Shown: piece by piece, positions 59,017 through 64,000 of the stretch
Layout of the letters: each line of letters starts with the position of its first letter
Position numbering within the stretch: the first letter of the stretch is position 1
Source: Cupriavidus alkaliphilus
GTDB lineage: Bacteria; Pseudomonadota; Gammaproteobacteria; Burkholderiales; Burkholderiaceae
DNA length: 64,000 bases
Assembly (NCBI RefSeq): GCF_900094595.1
Contig: NZ_FMAD01000006.1
Location: 1-64,000 of the forward strand
Direction of reading: 5' to 3'
The notes under the pieces: generated by a model
Seen by the model: only the letters and a program-made list of their open reading frames with translations
Database searches by the model: none
Told to the model about the DNA's origin: nothing
Position numbers and translations under genes: made by a program

Positions 59017-60036
59017 ATGCACCCGCGCGCCGACTTCCCGGAATATGACCAGTTGCTGACCTTGCTGGATGCCGGCAGCCACGTGCTCGATACCCAGGTG
59101 GTGTGCGAGACCACCGTCCAAGGCCACCGCTTCGGCGTGCATGTCGCCACGCTCGGCAGCCGCGACCCGGGTGCGCCGGCCATCGGCATCTTCGGCGGCA
59201 TTCACGGGCTGGAGCGCATCGGCACCCAACTGGTGCTGGATTATCTGCGCTCGGTGCTGTCCCGCCTGGCCTGGGACGAACTGCTGCACCGCGAGCTGCA
59301 ATCGGTGCGGCTGGTGTTCATGCCCATCGTCAATCCCGGCGGCATGTGGGCCGGCACGCGCGCCAACCCCAACGGCGTCGACCTGATGCGCAACGGCCCG
59401 CAGGATGCCGACGCGCGCGTACCCTTCCTGGCCGGCGGCCAGCGCCTCGGCGCCTGGCTGCCGTGGTACCGCGGCGCGGCCGGCGCGCCGATGGAGATCG
59501 AAAGCAGCGCCCTGCTGCGCGTGGTCCGGCAGGAACTGCTGCCGCGTCCGCTCAGCTTTGCGGTGGACTGCCATTCCGGCTACGGCTGGCGCGACAGCAT
59601 CTGGTTCCCGTACGCGCGCACGCGCCGGCCGATGCCGCACCTGGCCGAGATGTACCTGCTCAAGACCTTGTTCGAGCAGGCCCACCCGCACCATGGCTAT
59701 ACCTTCGAGCCGCAGAGCCACCAGTACCTGCTGCACGGCGACCTGTGGGACCATGCCTATGACCTGGCCCCGCGCGGCAACCTGTTCCTGCCGATGACGC
59801 TGGAGCTGGGCTCGTGGCTGTGGATCAAGAAAAACCCGCGCCAGCTGTTCTCGCGCGAGGGCATCTTCAACCCGATCAAGGCGCACCGCACCGCGCGCGT
59901 GCTGCGCCGGCACGTCAGCCTGTTCGACTTTCTCGGCCGTATCGCCTTTGCGTCGGACCGCTGGCTGCCCCGCGGCGCGCAGCGCGACGAACTGCTGCAG
60001 CAGGCGCGCGCGCACTGGCACACGGAGCCGCCATGA
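59017..60036 (+). CDS. M14-family zinc carboxypeptidase-like protein
   Basis: 339 residues, no signal peptide. The zinc ligands fit the M14 pattern: His and Glu in FGGIHGLERIGTQL near 65-78, a second His in DCHSGYGWRDSIWFPYA near 188, and the probable catalytic Glu in MTLELGSWLWIKKNP near 268. A substrate-binding Arg in NPNGVDLMRNG also fits. It probably trims a peptide, perhaps murein-derived, in the cytoplasm. It is coupled to the hydrolase gene (ATGA overlap). Confidence 0.86.
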   Translation: MHPRADFPEYDQLLTLLDAGSHVLDTQVVCETTVQGHRFGVHVATLGSRDPGAPAIGIFGGIHGLERIGTQLVLDYLRSVLSRLAWDELLHRELQSVRLVFMPIVNPGGMWAGTRANPNGVDLMRNGPQDADARVPFLAGGQRLGAWLPWYRGAAGAPMEIESSALLRVVRQELLPRPLSFAVDCHSGYGWRDSIWFPYARTRRPMPHLAEMYLLKTLFEQAHPHHGYTFEPQSHQYLLHGDLWDHAYDLAPRGNLFLPMTLELGSWLWIKKNPRQLFSREGIFNPIKAHRTARVLRRHVSLFDFLGRIAFASDRWLPRGAQRDELLQQARAHWHTEPP

Positions 60037-60785
60037 GCCGATGGGTGTTCTTGCGGGGACTGACGCGCGAATCGCGCCACTGGGGAACGCTGCCGGCGCG
60101 CTGGGAGGCAGCCGGGCTGGGACGCCCGCTGTTGCCTGACCTGCCCGGCAATGGCGCGCTGTCGGCACAGCCAGCGCCGTGGAGCGTGCGCGACATGGTG
60201 ACGGCGGTGCGGCGCCAGCTGACCGCCGCCGGCGTGCCGGGACCGTATCGCGTGCTGGCCATGTCGCTTGGGGCGATGGCCGCGACCGAGTGGGCCAGTA
60301 CGCATCCGGAAGAAGTGAGCGGCCTGGTGCTGGTCAACACCAGCATGCGACCCTTCTGCACGCCGGCGCAACGCCTGCGTCCGCGCAACTGGGGCAGCCT
60401 GCTGCGCGTGGCGCAGCGCTGGCGCGATCGCGCGTATTGCGAGCGGACCATCCACGCCATCACCTGCGCGCGCACCGACACGCTCGCCAGCGACCTTGCG
60501 CAGTGGCAGGCCATCGCGGCGGACGCACCGGTCAGCCGGCAGGCCGCGCTGGCGCAATTGCTGGCCGCCGCGCGCTACCGGGCGCCGGCCGAGCCGCCGC
60601 GCTGCCCGGTATTGCTGCTGGCCTCGGCGGCGGACCGGCTGGTCAACCCGGCCTGTTCGGCGCGCATCGCGCAGGCCTGGGACGTGCCCTTGCTGACGCA
60701 CCACTGGGCCGGCCATGACCTGCCGCACGACGACCCGCAATGGGTATGCGATGCGGTCGCACGCGCCGGATCACGCTTCGGCTAG
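60033..60785 (+). CDS. alpha/beta-fold hydrolase
   Basis: 250 residues from the ATG at 60033 overlapping the peptidase stop. It has FLRGLTRESRHWGTLPARW at the N-terminus, LLPDLPGNGALSAQPAPWSVRDMV, a nucleophile elbow reading LAMSLGAMAATEWA near 73-86, and the late acid/His region LLLASAADRLVNPACS and HHWAGHDLPHDDPQWV. The elbow is MSLGAM rather than GxSxG, but Ser is kept. The substrate is unknown. Its last 15 bases overlap the convergent tetR gene. Confidence 0.87.
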   Translation: MSRWVFLRGLTRESRHWGTLPARWEAAGLGRPLLPDLPGNGALSAQPAPWSVRDMVTAVRRQLTAAGVPGPYRVLAMSLGAMAATEWASTHPEEVSGLVLVNTSMRPFCTPAQRLRPRNWGSLLRVAQRWRDRAYCERTIHAITCARTDTLASDLAQWQAIAADAPVSRQAALAQLLAAARYRAPAEPPRCPVLLLASAADRLVNPACSARIAQAWDVPLLTHHWAGHDLPHDDPQWVCDAVARAGSRFG

Positions 60786-61358
60786 CGCCTCTTCTACCGG
60801 CATGGCGCTGACCAGCAGCGCTGCCGCGGCATCGACGCGCTCCCACGTACCGAACAGCCGCGCGCTGATCAGACCATTCTGCAGCGCACCGAATATCACC
60901 TGCGCCAGCTGTTGCGGCGGCAGCGAAAACGGCGCCGCGCCCCGGGCGCCGGCCTGCTCGAGCAGGCGCGCCAGCCATTGCTCGTTAAGGCGGGTGAAGT
61001 CCTGCATCGCGGCGCGCACGGTGTCAGGCATGGCCAGCACATCGGCCGACAGCATGCCGACCACGCAGGCCTGGTCGGTGCAGGCGCCGTCGCGCAGTGG
61101 CTGCAGGTATTGCCGCGCCTGCTCGGCGCACGGCAGGCTGGTATCGATGGCTTGCAGCCGCGCCCGCTTGCGCGCGCTGTATTCGCGCACCGCCTCGAGC
61201 ACCAGGTCGTCCTTGGACGGGAAGTAATAGTGGATGCTCGAGGTCTTGACGCCGACCAGTTCGGCCAGGTCGCGGTAGCTGAAGCCGTTGAAGCCCCTGC
61301 GGCGGATCAGCACCAGCGCGTGTTCGACCAGTTGCTCGCGTACGGTTGGGGTATTCAT
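60771..61358 (-). CDS. TetR-family repressor, copy A of the tandem module
   Basis: 195 residues from the ATG at 61358. The helix-turn-helix region VREQLVEHALVLIRRRGFNGFSYRDLAELVGVKTSSIHYYFPSKDDLV is nearly identical to that of copy B at 62584, while the ligand domains differ much more. Cysteines at CTDQACVVG in the middle could be redox or metal sensitive; copy B has a similar cluster CGSDQICLCG. Unlike copy B it has no own promoter or operator: it starts 32 bases after the miniprotein stop and should be cotranscribed. Its 3' end overlaps the convergent hydrolase gene by 15 bases. Confidence 0.93.
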   Translation of the reverse strand: MNTPTVREQLVEHALVLIRRRGFNGFSYRDLAELVGVKTSSIHYYFPSKDDLVLEAVREYSARKRARLQAIDTSLPCAEQARQYLQPLRDGACTDQACVVGMLSADVLAMPDTVRAAMQDFTRLNEQWLARLLEQAGARGAAPFSLPPQQLAQVIFGALQNGLISARLFGTWERVDAAAALLVSAMPVEEALAEA

Positions 61359-61390
61359 GGCATCGACTCCTCGGCTTGCCGCCGGACCAT

Positions 61391-61492
61391 TCAGGCCGGC
61401 AGCGTTTGTGCGATCAGCGTGATGAGGGACCCGCTTGCAAGGCAAAGTCCAACCCATCCGCCCAGGATCAGCGCAGTGTCACGCCAACGCAT
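61391..61492 (-). CDS. 33-residue membrane miniprotein, module copy A
   Basis: ATG preceded by AGGAG at seven bases. The product, MRWRDTALILGGWVGLCLAS then GSLITLIAQTLPA, is one hydrophobic span after a basic start. It aligns along its full length with the copy B miniprotein (shared RDxxLxxGGW, LC, SGSxIT and AQxLP). Conservation between two diverged copies, with ribosome sites kept, shows it is real. Function unknown; it may sit in the inner membrane as a sensor or partner of the exported repeat protein. Confidence 0.8.
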   Translation of the reverse strand: MRWRDTALILGGWVGLCLASGSLITLIAQTLPA

Positions 61493-61508
61493 GATCGACT
61501 CCTGAAGC

Positions 61509-61532
61509 AGGGCCGCACCGTGGCGGCCCTGT
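61509..61532 (-). repeat. hairpin between repeat-protein gene and miniprotein gene, copy A
   Basis: CAGGGCCGC (61509-61517) pairs with GCGGCCCTG (61524-61532), a 9-bp perfect stem with a 6-base loop. It ends 17 bases before the miniprotein start. Copy B has an analogous stem in the same place with a different sequence. It could stabilise the upstream message or limit read-through. Confidence 0.7.
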
Positions 61533-61566
61533 GGTTTTCGGTGGCCGGCGCCAGGCCGGCCGGCTC

Positions 61567-62187
61567 TCAGGCGATGGCGCCGTCGGTGTAGGGATCGACC
61601 TTGCCAACGCGCGCACCGTCGGTGTACGGGTCGAAGCTGCGGGCCGGTTCGGCCGACACACCGCTGCGGTCCAGACCGGCTACCGTGCGGGCGCCGTCGG
61701 TGTACGGATCAGCCTTGCCGACGCGCGCACCGTCGGTGTACGGGTCGAAGCTGCGGGCCGGTTCGGCCGACACGCCGCTGCGATCCAGGCCGGCTACCGT
61801 GCGGGCGCCGTCGGTGTACGGATCAGCCTTGCCGACGCGGGCACCATCGGTGAACGGATCGACCTTGCCGCTGCGGTAGTTGTAGCCGTAGCTGTCGGCC
61901 GGCACCGTGGCTGCGAGCGTCCGCGCGCCGTCGGTGTACGGGTCAGGCTTGCCGACGCGTGCGCCTTCGGTGAACGGGTCGAACTTGCCGCTGCGCGCGC
62001 CTTCCGTGAACGGGTCGAACTTGCCGGTGCGGGCACCGTCGGTGAAGGCATCGGCGTTGCCGACGCGATAGCTGTAGCCGTACTTGTCGCCAGCGTTGGC
62101 GTTCACGCTGGCGGCCTGCGCGACACCGCCTGCGAGCGCGGCGGCAAGGGTGGCGGCGGTGATCAGGGTCTTGGCGGTCTTGGTCAT
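61567..62187 (-). CDS. exported DPYTDGAR-repeat protein, copy A
   Basis: 206 residues with a Sec signal peptide (TKTAKTLITAATLAAALAGGVAQA) and AGGAG before the ATG. The mature part has ten copies of an octapeptide D-P-[FY]-T-[DE]-G-A-R, joined by short linkers [ST]GKF, VGK[APV] or TVAGLDRSGVSAEPARSF. It contains no Cys or Trp and has balanced Asp/Glu and Arg. Two YGY-type segments (DKYGYSYR, DSYGYNYR) break the array. I know no characterised family for this repeat. Its first 80 codons are nearly identical to copy B. Confidence 0.85.
   Translation of the reverse strand: MTKTAKTLITAATLAAALAGGVAQAASVNANAGDKYGYSYRVGNADAFTDGARTGKFDPFTEGARSGKFDPFTEGARVGKPDPYTDGARTLAATVPADSYGYNYRSGKVDPFTDGARVGKADPYTDGARTVAGLDRSGVSAEPARSFDPYTDGARVGKADPYTDGARTVAGLDRSGVSAEPARSFDPYTDGARVGKVDPYTDGAIA
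61601..61828. repeat. 114-bp tandem duplication inside repeat-protein gene A
   Basis: Two near-identical 114-bp units (61601-61714 and 61715-61828) encode a 38-residue block each: octapeptide, TVAGLDRSGVSAEPARSF linker, octapeptide, VGKA. Copy B has only one such block, which explains most of the length difference (206 versus 128 residues). Confidence 0.9.
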
Positions 62188-62265
62188 GATGGGCTCCTGG
62201 GTGCGATGGTTCGGTATCGCGTCAATTCGGTATCAGTGGCTGTTGCAGTCTTTCTTCCGATTCCG

Positions 62266-62283
62266 CATCTATCAGTAGATAGA
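62266..62283 (-). promoter_or_regulatory. TetR-type 18-bp operator A1, in the leader of repeat gene A
   Basis: Read on the minus strand: TCTATCTACTGATAGATG. It matches the shared pattern TCTAYCT-N4-RTAGAT seen at three other sites in this module. It lies 79-96 bases upstream of the repeat-protein start, just inside a TTGAGA that could be a -35 element. The equivalent position in copy B (63890-63907) holds the same operator. Confidence 0.75.
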
Positions 62284-62385
62284 TAACCGGTCTCAAAAAA
62301 ATGACCGCTTCCGGTCGTGCAATGGGACCGCCGTGTGCCGCCTGGTCTTGCTTGTTGGTGGCGGTGCAGCGCTTCCATGGACTGG

Positions 62386-62414
62386 ATACTATCTACTGCT
62401 AGGTAGAGAGTCAA
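62386..62414 (-). promoter_or_regulatory. sigma-70 promoter of module A with TetR operator filling the spacer
   Basis: Minus strand: TTGACT (62409-62414), exactly 17 bp, TAGTAT (62386-62391). The 18-bp operator TCTACCTAGCAGTAGATA (62390-62407) occupies the spacer and touches the -10. This is the classic position for a blocking repressor. The leader to the repeat-protein start is about 190 bases. The matching promoter of module B would fall just past the right window edge. Confidence 0.8.
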
Positions 62415-62516
62415 GGAAAAACGTTTCTATGGGTGCGATAGTCATTCCCGATGAAGCGTTAAGTTCTTGTTTTTGAACCAGCTTTCTGGATCGGCGTGGC
62501 CATGCCGCAGGCAAAT

Positions 62517-62551
62517 AAAAAAACCGCCATGCGGCTTGCGCCACACGGCGG
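62517..62551 (-). terminator. intrinsic terminator after tetR copy B
   Basis: On the minus strand, CCGCCGTGTGGC pairs with GCCGCATGGCGG (12 bp, two G-U pairs) around a GCAA tetraloop and is followed by seven T. It begins 32 bases after the stop of tetR copy B and separates it from the module A promoter. Confidence 0.92.
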
Positions 62552-62583
62552 CTTCAGACGCGCCACTGATATCGCGCGCAAAT

Positions 62584-63150
62584 TCAACCGGATACGGCCG
62601 CCATCAGGGTGTCGGCGGCGGCTTCAACACGGTCCGACGTGCCGAACAGGCGTGCCGCGATCAGCCCGCTCTGCAGCGAGCCGAATACCACCTGTGCCAG
62701 CCGCGCCGGCGGTACCGGGAACGGCGTGCTGCGATAGGGCTGGGCCCGCTCCAGCAGCCCGGCCAGCCATTGCTCGTTCAGCAGGAAGAAGCCCTGCAGC
62801 ATCTTGTGCACGGATTCTGGCAGGCACAGCGTCTCGGTCGACAGCATGCCGCACAGGCAGATCTGGTCCGAGCCGCAGCTCGCGCGGAATGGCGCGAGGT
62901 AGATGGCAGCCTGCTCGGTGACCGGCAGGCTGGTGTCGATGGCGTTGATGCGTTCGGCCAGGCGGGCGCTGTATTCCTTCACCGCTTCCTGGACCAGGTC
63001 TTCCTTGGTCGGAAAGTAATAGTGGATGCTGGAGGTCTTCACGCCCACGAGCTCCGCAAGGTCGCGGTAGCTGAAGCCGTTGAAGCCGCGCCGGCGGATC
63101 AGGATCAGGGTGTGCTCGAGCAATTGCTCGCGTACGGATTGGGTCTTCAT
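62584..63150 (-). CDS. TetR-family repressor, copy B of the tandem module
   Basis: 188 residues. The DNA-binding domain VREQLLEHTLILIRRRGFNGFSYRDLAELVGVKTSSIHYYFPTKEDLV is almost the same as in copy A, so both should read the same operators. The ligand half has diverged, with a Cys cluster CGSDQICLCG near residue 85. It has its own promoter with a built-in operator. The predicted transcription start falls at or next to the ATG, so the mRNA may be leaderless. It ends with a strong intrinsic terminator. Confidence 0.94.
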   Translation of the reverse strand: MKTQSVREQLLEHTLILIRRRGFNGFSYRDLAELVGVKTSSIHYYFPTKEDLVQEAVKEYSARLAERINAIDTSLPVTEQAAIYLAPFRASCGSDQICLCGMLSTETLCLPESVHKMLQGFFLLNEQWLAGLLERAQPYRSTPFPVPPARLAQVVFGSLQSGLIAARLFGTSDRVEAAADTLMAAVSG

Positions 63151-63156
63151 GCAAGC

Positions 63157-63185
63157 AGTTTATCTACGCGAAGATAGACGCTCAA
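63157..63185 (-). promoter_or_regulatory. autoregulated promoter of tetR copy B
   Basis: Minus strand: TTGAGC (63180-63185), exactly 17 bp, TAAACT (63157-63162). The spacer holds operator TCTATCTTCGCGTAGATA (63161-63178). The -10 ends only 7 bases before the ATG at 63150, so a start about 7 bases downstream gives a transcript with essentially no leader. Confidence 0.78.
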
Positions 63186-63192
63186 GTTGAAA

Positions 63193-63229
63193 TGCCCCGG
63201 GGCTGGGGTAATTCCCTAGCCTCGGGGCA
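63193..63229 (-). terminator. hairpin between miniprotein B and the tetR B promoter
   Basis: TGCCCCGGGGCTGGGG (63193-63208) and CCCTAGCCTCGGGGCA (63214-63229) form a 16-bp stem with two mismatches and a 5-base loop, 19 bases past the miniprotein stop. The T-tract after it is weak. It most likely ends or attenuates the repeat-miniprotein transcript just before the tetR promoter. Copy A lacks it. Confidence 0.65.
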
Positions 63230-63247
63230 CTGTGCACTACATGGGCG

Positions 63248-63349
63248 TTAGCCAGGCAGGACCTGCGCGGCGAAGGTAATCATCGAGCCACTCGTCACGC
63301 AAAGTACCAGCCATCCGCCAACTAACAGGATGCTGTCACGCAAACTCAT
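63248..63349 (-). CDS. 33-residue membrane miniprotein, module copy B
   Basis: ATG preceded by GGAG. The product begins MSLRDSILLVGGWLVLCVTS and ends GSMITFAAQVLPG, one membrane span after a short polar start. It is the same length as the copy A miniprotein and shares about half its residues. It lies 72 bases after the repeat-protein stop, behind a hairpin. Function unknown. Confidence 0.8.
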   Translation of the reverse strand: MSLRDSILLVGGWLVLCVTSGSMITFAAQVLPG

Positions 63350-63366
63350 GATGGACTCCATCGGAC

Positions 63367-63383
63367 GGCGGCCACGGGCCGCC
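63367..63383 (-). repeat. hairpin between repeat-protein gene and miniprotein gene, copy B
   Basis: GGCGGCC (63367-63373) and GGCCGCC (63377-63383) form a 7-bp perfect stem with a 3-base loop, 17 bases before the miniprotein start. It is the positional equivalent of the copy A stem, with the pairing kept although the sequence differs. Confidence 0.65.
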
Positions 63384-63421
63384 ATCGTAAGTTGTGGGCC
63401 GCCGGCCGGTGCCGGCAGCAA

Positions 63422-63808
63422 TCAGGCCAGGGCGCCGTCGGTATAGGGGTCAGCCTTGCCGACGCGCGCACCGTCCGTGTACGGGTCGAAGCTGCGGGCC
63501 GGCTCGGACGAGACGCCGGTGCGGTCCAGGCCCGCCACGGTGCGGAAGCCATCGGTGTACGGGTCGGTCTTGCCGACGCGTGCGCCTTCGGTGAACGGAT
63601 CGAACTTGCCGCTGCGCGCGCCTTCCGTGAACGGGTCGAACTTGCCGGTGCGGGCACCGTCGGTAAAGGCATCGGCGTTGCCGACGCGGTAGCTGTAGCC
63701 GTACTTGTCGCCGGCGTTGTCCTGCACGCTGGCGGCCTGCGCCACACCGCCGACGAGCGCGGCGGCAAGGGTGGCGGCGGTAATCAGGGTCTTGGCGGTC
63801 TTGGTCAT
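63422..63808 (-). CDS. exported DPYTDGAR-repeat protein, copy B
   Basis: 128 residues with the same signal peptide as copy A and AGGAG before the ATG. Six octapeptides follow: DAFTDGAR, two DPFTEGAR, DPYTDGFR, DPYTDGAR and a final DPYTDGAL. It carries one TVAGLDRTGVSSEPARSF linker. The first 80 residues differ from copy A at only three positions. The mature protein has no Cys or Trp. It should be periplasmic or secreted; no lipobox or sortase-type anchor is seen. Function unknown. Confidence 0.85.
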   Translation of the reverse strand: MTKTAKTLITAATLAAALVGGVAQAASVQDNAGDKYGYSYRVGNADAFTDGARTGKFDPFTEGARSGKFDPFTEGARVGKTDPYTDGFRTVAGLDRTGVSSEPARSFDPYTDGARVGKADPYTDGALA

Positions 63809-63889: not shown

Positions 63890-63907
63890 CATCTACTAGT
63901 AGATAGA
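63890..63907 (-). promoter_or_regulatory. TetR-type 18-bp operator B1
   Basis: Minus strand: TCTATCTACTAGTAGATG, containing the 14-bp perfect palindrome ATCTACTAGTAGAT. It lies 82-99 bases upstream of repeat gene B, at the same place as A1 in the other copy. A TTCAGG with 17-bp spacing to TAGTAG nearby could be a weak promoter. Confidence 0.78.
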
Positions 63908-64000
63908 TTGCCGGGCCTGAAAAAATGACCGCTCAGGTCATGCAATGGAATCGCCACATTTCCGTGCCTTCTTGCTTTCGTTGGCAGTGCAGCGGTGCCA

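Follow-up and report, generated by a model that had tools for sequence, protein, structure and literature searches.

A 64,000-nucleotide stretch of Cupriavidus alkaliphilus DNA (contig NZ_FMAD01000006.1, positions 1 to 64,000; hereafter the window) carries two tandem modules, A and B, each of three genes, in a host genome of 6.1 Mb. All six genes lie on the minus strand between 60771 and 63808, and each trio runs in the order repeat gene, 33-codon single-span open reading frame (ORF), TetR gene, just as an earlier note on this DNA had described. That note considered the repeat protein to be without a known family; on sequence, it is instead a member of the CopQ-like family (PMC2864759, available to us in part). 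The trio is a known family set in a regulatory unit, and the unit itself is apparently undescribed: in the open-licence literature we found no description of a TetR-linked CopQ-like unit and no paper on the octapeptide DPYTDGAR. We lean towards the view that each module is a stress-inducible periplasmic-protection operon, the two together having two thiol-type sensors and one output.

The trio is a persistent feature of the genus. With TetR A as the query (E<=1e-30), matches were found in 59 of 60 Cupriavidus genomes, with two per genome in 54 of the 59 and 122 places overall. A same-strand CopQ-like ORF lies upstream of TetR in 119 of the 122 (120 when read from stop to stop, with gaps of 104-410 nt), and one of the three places without it is cut by a contig end. 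A miniprotein-like ORF stands within 420 nt upstream of TetR at 106 of the 122 places, with scores of at least 50 against a maximum of 33 from 122 shuffled regions. The conservation claimed in the earlier note is thus upheld. Ninety-nine of the 106 miniprotein ORFs have 33 codons, a length favored by our picking the starts nearest to our consensus. Among 87 distinct 33-codon ORFs, compared only in pairs of 70-95% DNA identity, the median ratio of nonsynonymous to synonymous substitution rates (dN/dS) is 0.26, with 91% of 927 pairs below 0.5; differences at the three codon positions number 43029/32498/58018. By these measures the miniprotein ORF is under purifying selection. Its best-kept residues in the 87 are Gly12 (86), Gly21 (81), Trp13 (80), Cys17 (77) and Ser20 (77). 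A chance ORF is ruled out by the recurrence, the shuffled-region scores and the dN/dS. Given its recurrence in the genus, this purifying selection and the conservation of its operators, the trio is more than a chance arrangement; it is a conserved, dedicated and probably repressor-controlled unit encoding exported or membrane proteins.

The miniprotein was found in all seven Cupriavidus genomes searched for it and in none of four from the second CopQ-bearing genus. Repeat and miniprotein ORFs also occur together without a nearby TetR, at six of 11 extra places (L176, L328, L329, L330, L332 and L335). At L331 and L333 a short or degenerate repeat ORF, judged by eye, lies directly upstream of the miniprotein, and at the other three (L334, L336 and L337) no repeat ORF accompanies it. 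C. metallidurans CH34 has one repeat-miniprotein copy with an operator and no TetR within the 4.4 kb examined. Directly upstream of the miniprotein the sequence can form a strong hairpin (median -32.4 kcal/mol; z of -2.65 from 20 mononucleotide shuffles each). It is highly improbable that the miniprotein is toxin-like or bacteriocin-like and the trio a selfish or toxin-antitoxin-like unit that persists through addiction: a hydrophobic single-span peptide of 33 residues beside a regulator, tandemly duplicated, would suit such a unit, but the trio is conserved across the genus, the repeat-miniprotein pair exists without TetR, and some loci hold repeat gene and TetR without the miniprotein. As a separate observation, a relative of the miniprotein (MNWHDVALIAIGWVGLCLGVGW...) is encoded at 1715-1892 of L336 (G000:C28:184500-188500), where the 4 kb covered showed no CopQ-like gene, and L337 has a counterpart; GW-C-G single-span peptides may form a wider family.

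In those parts of the literature that we could consult, CopQ-like proteins are small, metal-induced and restricted to Cupriavidus and Ralstonia (PMC2864759, PMC7380067, PMC7563307), with a signal sequence and three to four copies of the motif RDXXTDG (PMC2864759). CH34 has 21 copQ homologs (PMC7563307); PrsQ1 and PrsQ2 are credited, from earlier work, with importance for a silver-resistant phenotype (PMC7380067); a paper as late as 2020 terms the proteins poorly characterized. Our repeat proteins resemble CopQ, CzcJ, MmrQ, MmmQ, MmtQ, MmsQ and PrsQ1/2 of C. metallidurans in small size, significant sequence similarity and abundance of paralogs; a signal-peptide-like N-terminus, a repeat of D-x-x-T-[DE]-G type and an occurrence in Cupriavidus and one other genus in the family search are compatible with the published description. 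They differ in setting, since the accessible passages discuss the C. metallidurans proteins one by one or as parts of metal loci, without reference to a TetR, a miniprotein or a common operator. They differ also in motif. DPYTDGAR occurs once in copy A and five times in copy B, and the looser D-x-x-T-[DE]-G six and ten times, whereas strict RDxxTDG is absent from both and occurs four times in the coding sequence at the CzcJ position of plasmid pMOL30. As the strict-motif arginine is missing from both, we take them to be a divergent CopQ-like branch.

Database comparisons place the proteins in the same group. By tblastn, the repeat protein matched a place on CH34 chromosome 2 (E 4e-49) and, on pMOL30, a coding sequence beside czcE and a porin, the place of czcJ (E 2e-4). 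All 21 matching plasmid records are from Cupriavidus. At E<=1e-6 the copy A protein matched 36 of 60 genomes (this one and 35 congeners), and the 24 genomes taken from the order's other families gave no match; a search of 150 genomes of the family gave 27 matching genomes in two of 25 genera (E<=1e-5). Neither the repeat proteins nor the miniproteins matched any Pfam or NCBIfam family above cutoff, while TetR_N was found in both regulators and TetR_C_13 passed its cutoff in TetR B only. The N-terminus of the repeat proteins is Lys-bearing and hydrophobic and ends in AQA/A, with a low-confidence helix at 3-26 in the AlphaFold2 model. That model gives no confident fold (predicted local distance difference test score, pLDDT, 51.4; predicted template modeling score 0.17), and on these values, with no fold search made from the model, a folded repeat domain was rejected, folding that depends on a partner being compatible with them. 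The genome holds 16 CopQ-like loci at E<=1e-3 (24 matches, grouped by us), and only modules A and B have a TetR nearby. Viewed from the repeat gene, then, the self-contained unit of the earlier note is not supported as a rule, the gene being common without TetR (14 of 16 loci in the wider family), so that the note's own ground for refutation applies by half; viewed from TetR, the trio is kept. The neighbors of 15 other CopQ-like paralogs in this genome are mixed and include peroxiredoxin-like, old-yellow-enzyme-like, RND-pump and ECF-sigma-like genes.

The modules possess their own operators, as had been claimed. The palindrome TCTA-N8-TAGA is present in 115 of 116 repeat promoters (from 119, less three without a parsable start), mostly twice, against a shuffled mean of 0.35, and near the TetR start in 46 of 116 TetR promoters, mostly at -28. 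Its refined form, TCTAYCTNNNNRTAGA, occurs five times in the genome, always within this locus; its reversed sequence, used as a control, occurs once. Four of the five sites lie in the window, and the distal operator of copy A falls past its end (Table 1). A wide regulon was rejected on this five-of-five placement and on eight other genomes, where rows elsewhere, counted without inspection of the genes beside them, number 7 against 17 control matches; by our assignment, 41 of 48 refined-operator rows in those eight are at TetR, CopQ-like or ohr loci. Modules A and B are unequal: TetR A starts beside an operator of its own and TetR B does not. Of 59 genomes, 40 have such an operator at exactly one TetR of two. 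In 110 promoters whose two sites are separated by 60 nt or more, sigma-70-like hexamers surround the distal operator in 80, and a hairpin with a T-run precedes the proximal operator in 75, compared with 3 of 110 shuffled. This excess suggests that the leader hairpin may be an extra attenuation or roadblock step. DNA looping was set aside as the reason for paired operators; their spacing is about 123-126 bp in the tandem group and variable elsewhere. One further locus, L135 (G001:C6:139527-146587), has two CopQ-like copies with two operator sites each and a single TetR match nearby.

The relatives of the TetR outside Cupriavidus offer an indication of its probable inducer. In the 150-genome search, TetR (E<=1e-30) was found in 75 genomes and 12 of 25 genera, Cupriavidus included, and of 61 matching genomes from other genera, 60 have a single copy. 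These genomes offer 62 places, of which we chose 18 outgroup loci from other Burkholderiaceae, most of them high-scoring. Fifteen of the 18 have the palindrome (14 of them at -25 to -53 of TetR), and in nine an ORF for Ohr, the organic hydroperoxide resistance protein, follows TetR. The 122 Cupriavidus TetR rows form one clade among the outgroup TetRs (support 96/87). In Burkholderia multivorans and B. pyrrocinia the annotation reads TetR, organic hydroperoxide resistance protein and alpha/beta hydrolase, and Pfam confirms the Ohr and hydrolase domains; in an unannotated B. cenocepacia record the ORFs follow one another identically, and palindromes lie at -29, 618 and 685. According to a source available in part (PMC2830190), in B. 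cenocepacia J2315 biofilms H2O2 raised BCAS0084 (TetR) 5.9-fold, BCAS0085 (Ohr) 49.3-fold and BCAS0086 (lipase) 96.6-fold, and NaOCl raised them 3.8-, 20.3- and 11.3-fold. The Burkholderia TetR is about 45-50% identical to ours, and the same 16-bp palindrome stands before TetR and the target gene. The target there is an Ohr peroxidase and a lipase, whereas in Cupriavidus it is a CopQ-like protein and a miniprotein, and Burkholderia has one copy per genome where Cupriavidus usually has two. Collimonas offers a third arrangement: at all seven loci (L312-L318), two palindromes separate TetR (about 52% identical) from an exported, small, repeat-bearing target of DUF4148 type (Pfam run on one). This target belongs to another family (PF13663), which has no match among the window proteins up to E 1, and its orientation is divergent. 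We tentatively propose that these could be a new TetR group of thiol-redox type, with a 16-bp operator of its own and outputs swapped between lineages: Ohr in Burkholderia, an exported DUF4148-type protein in Collimonas and, in Cupriavidus, an oxidant-proof, disordered protein of the periplasm together with a membrane miniprotein. In Cupriavidus the regulator would have been duplicated into two sensors over one output kept alike by gene conversion.

Features of the TetRs themselves point the same way. The AlphaFold2 model of TetR A has a pLDDT of 93.4. Cys98 and Arg167 are each present in all 62 TetR rows and align with Cys106 and Lys175 of NemR, the bleach and electrophile repressor of E. coli, with which these proteins share the TetR fold, the invariant cysteine and, where NemR has Lys175, a basic side chain (PMC7464077, available in part). 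Identity to NemR is about 20%, Arg replaces Lys175, and NemR controls nemA-gloA, whereas all five refined operators here precede CopQ-like genes and TetR A. On the evidence of its relatives, the TetR probably senses oxidants or thiol-reactive metals. An organic ligand (acrylate, a fatty acid, a solvent or an electrophile) acting in an ordinary TetR pocket, with the module as a solvent or membrane-stress response, is a doubtful alternative. The best NCBIfam model is indeed AcuR, NF051457 (TetR B, 38.1 bits, E 9.2e-10; TetR A, 36.4 bits), TetR_C_13 passes its cutoff in TetR B, and some relatives adjoin a hydrolase-like or, by eye, an aldehyde-dehydrogenase-like ORF. Those bit scores are far below the required 247, and AcuR membership was rejected; the invariance of Cys98 and Arg167, the ohr linkage and the published H2O2 and NaOCl induction of the Burkholderia operon with the same gene order (PMC2830190) argue against such a ligand.

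The mature repeat proteins, cut by rule at residue 26, are nearly devoid of four residues: Cys, Met, His and Trp together make up 0.28%, as opposed to 7.62% across the 46 window ORFs that served as controls, and 53 of 73 mature proteins have none at all. Twelve unlinked paralogs of the same genome have 1.99%, and three of the 12 have none. The side chains of Cys, Met, His and Trp are among the most hypochlorite-reactive and are the usual ligands of soft metals. Their near-absence leads us to infer that the repeat protein may protect the periplasm and stay functional in the presence of oxidants, rather than chelate metal. This bears on a further, unlikely reading, that the locus is a heavy-metal system whose TetRs bind Cd, Hg or Pb via Cys92/98/100/109 and whose repeat protein buffers periplasmic metal in the manner of the CopQ-like genes of metal loci. 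TetR A has cysteines at those four positions, and the literature, as far as it is accessible, describes CopQ-like relatives as metal-induced, some within metal loci, with an induction of mmtQ by Cd, Hg and Pb stated without shown data. However, only Cys98 is invariant (Cys92 occurs in 28, Cys100 in 29 and Cys109 in 24 of 62 rows), the repeat proteins nearly lack Cys, His and Met ligands, the same TetR and operator elsewhere adjoin ohr, and next to module B the pair of genes that was checked proved to be of carboxypeptidase and hydrolase type, not metal genes.

The metal data may in fact be at home with a thiol-type sensor. One contig (G031 C4), whose matches fall at the same coordinates as in the CH34 record NC_007974.2, we take to be CH34 chromosome 2. 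Locus-number arithmetic predicts mmmQ at 1064 kb, where a match was found at 1058.9, and mmtQ at 753 kb, where the nearest match, at 770.8, is TetR-linked; an equal-scoring pair at 1570.9 and 2348.9 kb is assumed to be mmsQ/mmsQ1. By this interpolation, mmtQ and mmsQ would be repeat genes of the TetR module in CH34. Both are described as unlinked to any metal locus, and mmtQ as induced by Cd, Hg and Pb and not by Cu or Ni, again without shown data (PMC2864759, in the part available). If mmtQ is a TetR-module gene, this pattern of induction fits a thiol-type sensor.

Tandem pairs are found in 25 of 59 genomes (26 pairs), and their parts have diverged to different degrees. Median identity over the first 150 nt of the repeat genes is 93.3% within a genome, compared with 83.3% (A) and 82.6% (B) for the same copy between genomes. 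The 230-nt repeat promoters are not homogenized (81.9% within; 83.8% for A and 83.6% for B between). For the ligand domains of the TetRs, identity is 56.7% inside one genome and 90.6% (A) or 73.1% (B) from genome to genome; the corresponding values are 57.6%, 97% and 87.9% for the miniproteins and 87%, 96% and 92% for the DNA-binding regions of the TetRs. By these comparisons, the repeat genes are homogenized in their 5' parts, and divergence is retained in sensor domains and miniproteins. The two TetRs, A and B, form separate supported clades (each 100/99); a single ancestral duplication was not accepted, as the branching order of the Cupriavidus paralog clades is unsettled despite that support.

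Table 1. Features of modules A and B (window positions unless stated)
Feature	Position	Strand	Remarks
CopQ-like repeat protein, copy A	63422..63808	-	128 aa; signal-peptide-like N-terminus
Miniprotein, copy A	63248..63349	-	33 aa; single-span
TetR A	62584..63150	-	188 aa; Cys at 92, 98, 100, 109
CopQ-like repeat protein, copy B	61567..62187	-	206 aa
Miniprotein, copy B	61391..61492	-	33 aa; single-span
TetR B	60771..61358	-	195 aa; own start without operator
Operator, promoter-distal, repeat A	contig 64015-64030		beyond window end
Operator, promoter-proximal, repeat A	63892..63907	-	TCTATCTACTAGTAGA
Operator of TetR A	63163..63178	-	TCTATCTTCGCGTAGA; at -28
Operator, promoter-distal, repeat B	62392..62407	-	TCTACCTAGCAGTAGA; within sigma-70-like promoter
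Operator, promoter-proximal, repeat B	62268..62283	-	TCTATCTACTGATAGA
Sigma-70-like promoter, repeat B	62386..62414	-	TTGACT-17-TAGTAT; spans distal operator
Terminator-like hairpin and T-run, repeat A leader	63925..63941	-	before proximal operator
Terminator-like hairpin and T-run, repeat B leader	62303..62316	-	between its two operators
Terminator-like hairpin, end of module A	62520..62555	-	directly after TetR A

Adjoining module B on the opposite strand are a Peptidase_M14-type gene (59017-60036) and an alpha/beta hydrolase gene (60036-60785).

In the mechanism that we favor, TetR A and TetR B would bind common operators, a view taken because their DNA-binding regions are nearly identical, and would hold a strong promoter off. 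Oxidants (peroxide, hypochlorite or organic hydroperoxide) or thiol-reactive soft metals would modify Cys98 in the style of NemR, and the DNA would be released. Derepression would yield a disordered, exported repeat protein without oxidizable or soft-metal-binding side chains, most likely serving as a shield or holdase in the periplasm or at the membrane surface, with the co-made single-span peptide assisting it. Tandem duplication would have provided two sensors for different signals, with the one output kept alike by gene conversion.

Several facts weigh against this scheme. With Arg in the place of Lys175, the sulfenamide of NemR cannot be assumed, and a second cysteine (Cys100) is present in just 29 of the 62 rows. 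Further, the structures 3on4, 2g7s and 3bru, for which we know of no function, are closer to the TetR than NemR is. The loss of Cys, Met, His and Trp may be no more than a consequence of disorder and repeat expansion, and export was not a criterion in picking the control ORFs. BCAS0084 was assigned to the TetR group through its gene order and a different B. cenocepacia record rather than through its own sequence, and nine of the 18 outgroup loci have no Ohr ORF after TetR. The equation of mmtQ and mmsQ with TetR-linked genes depends on interpolated locus numbers, and the literature, so far as it was available, holds no inducer test for TetR-linked Cupriavidus copies save those metal data, if mapped rightly. 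Both TetRs lack their own operator in 12 of 59 genomes, and the miniprotein ORF is absent at 16 of the 122 loci, that at the mmtQ position of CH34 among them.

For the large, paralog-rich CopQ-like family, this locus supplies a regulator and an operator, a conserved partner in the membrane and, because the TetR is linked to the Burkholderia peroxide and hypochlorite operon, a testable class of inducer. The locus is also a small, naturally occurring example in which a single homogenized output is set under two diverged sensors. If the proposal of an output-swapping TetR group is true, CopQ-like proteins would be general periplasmic shields against oxidant and thiol stress, and metals would induce them through thiol damage.

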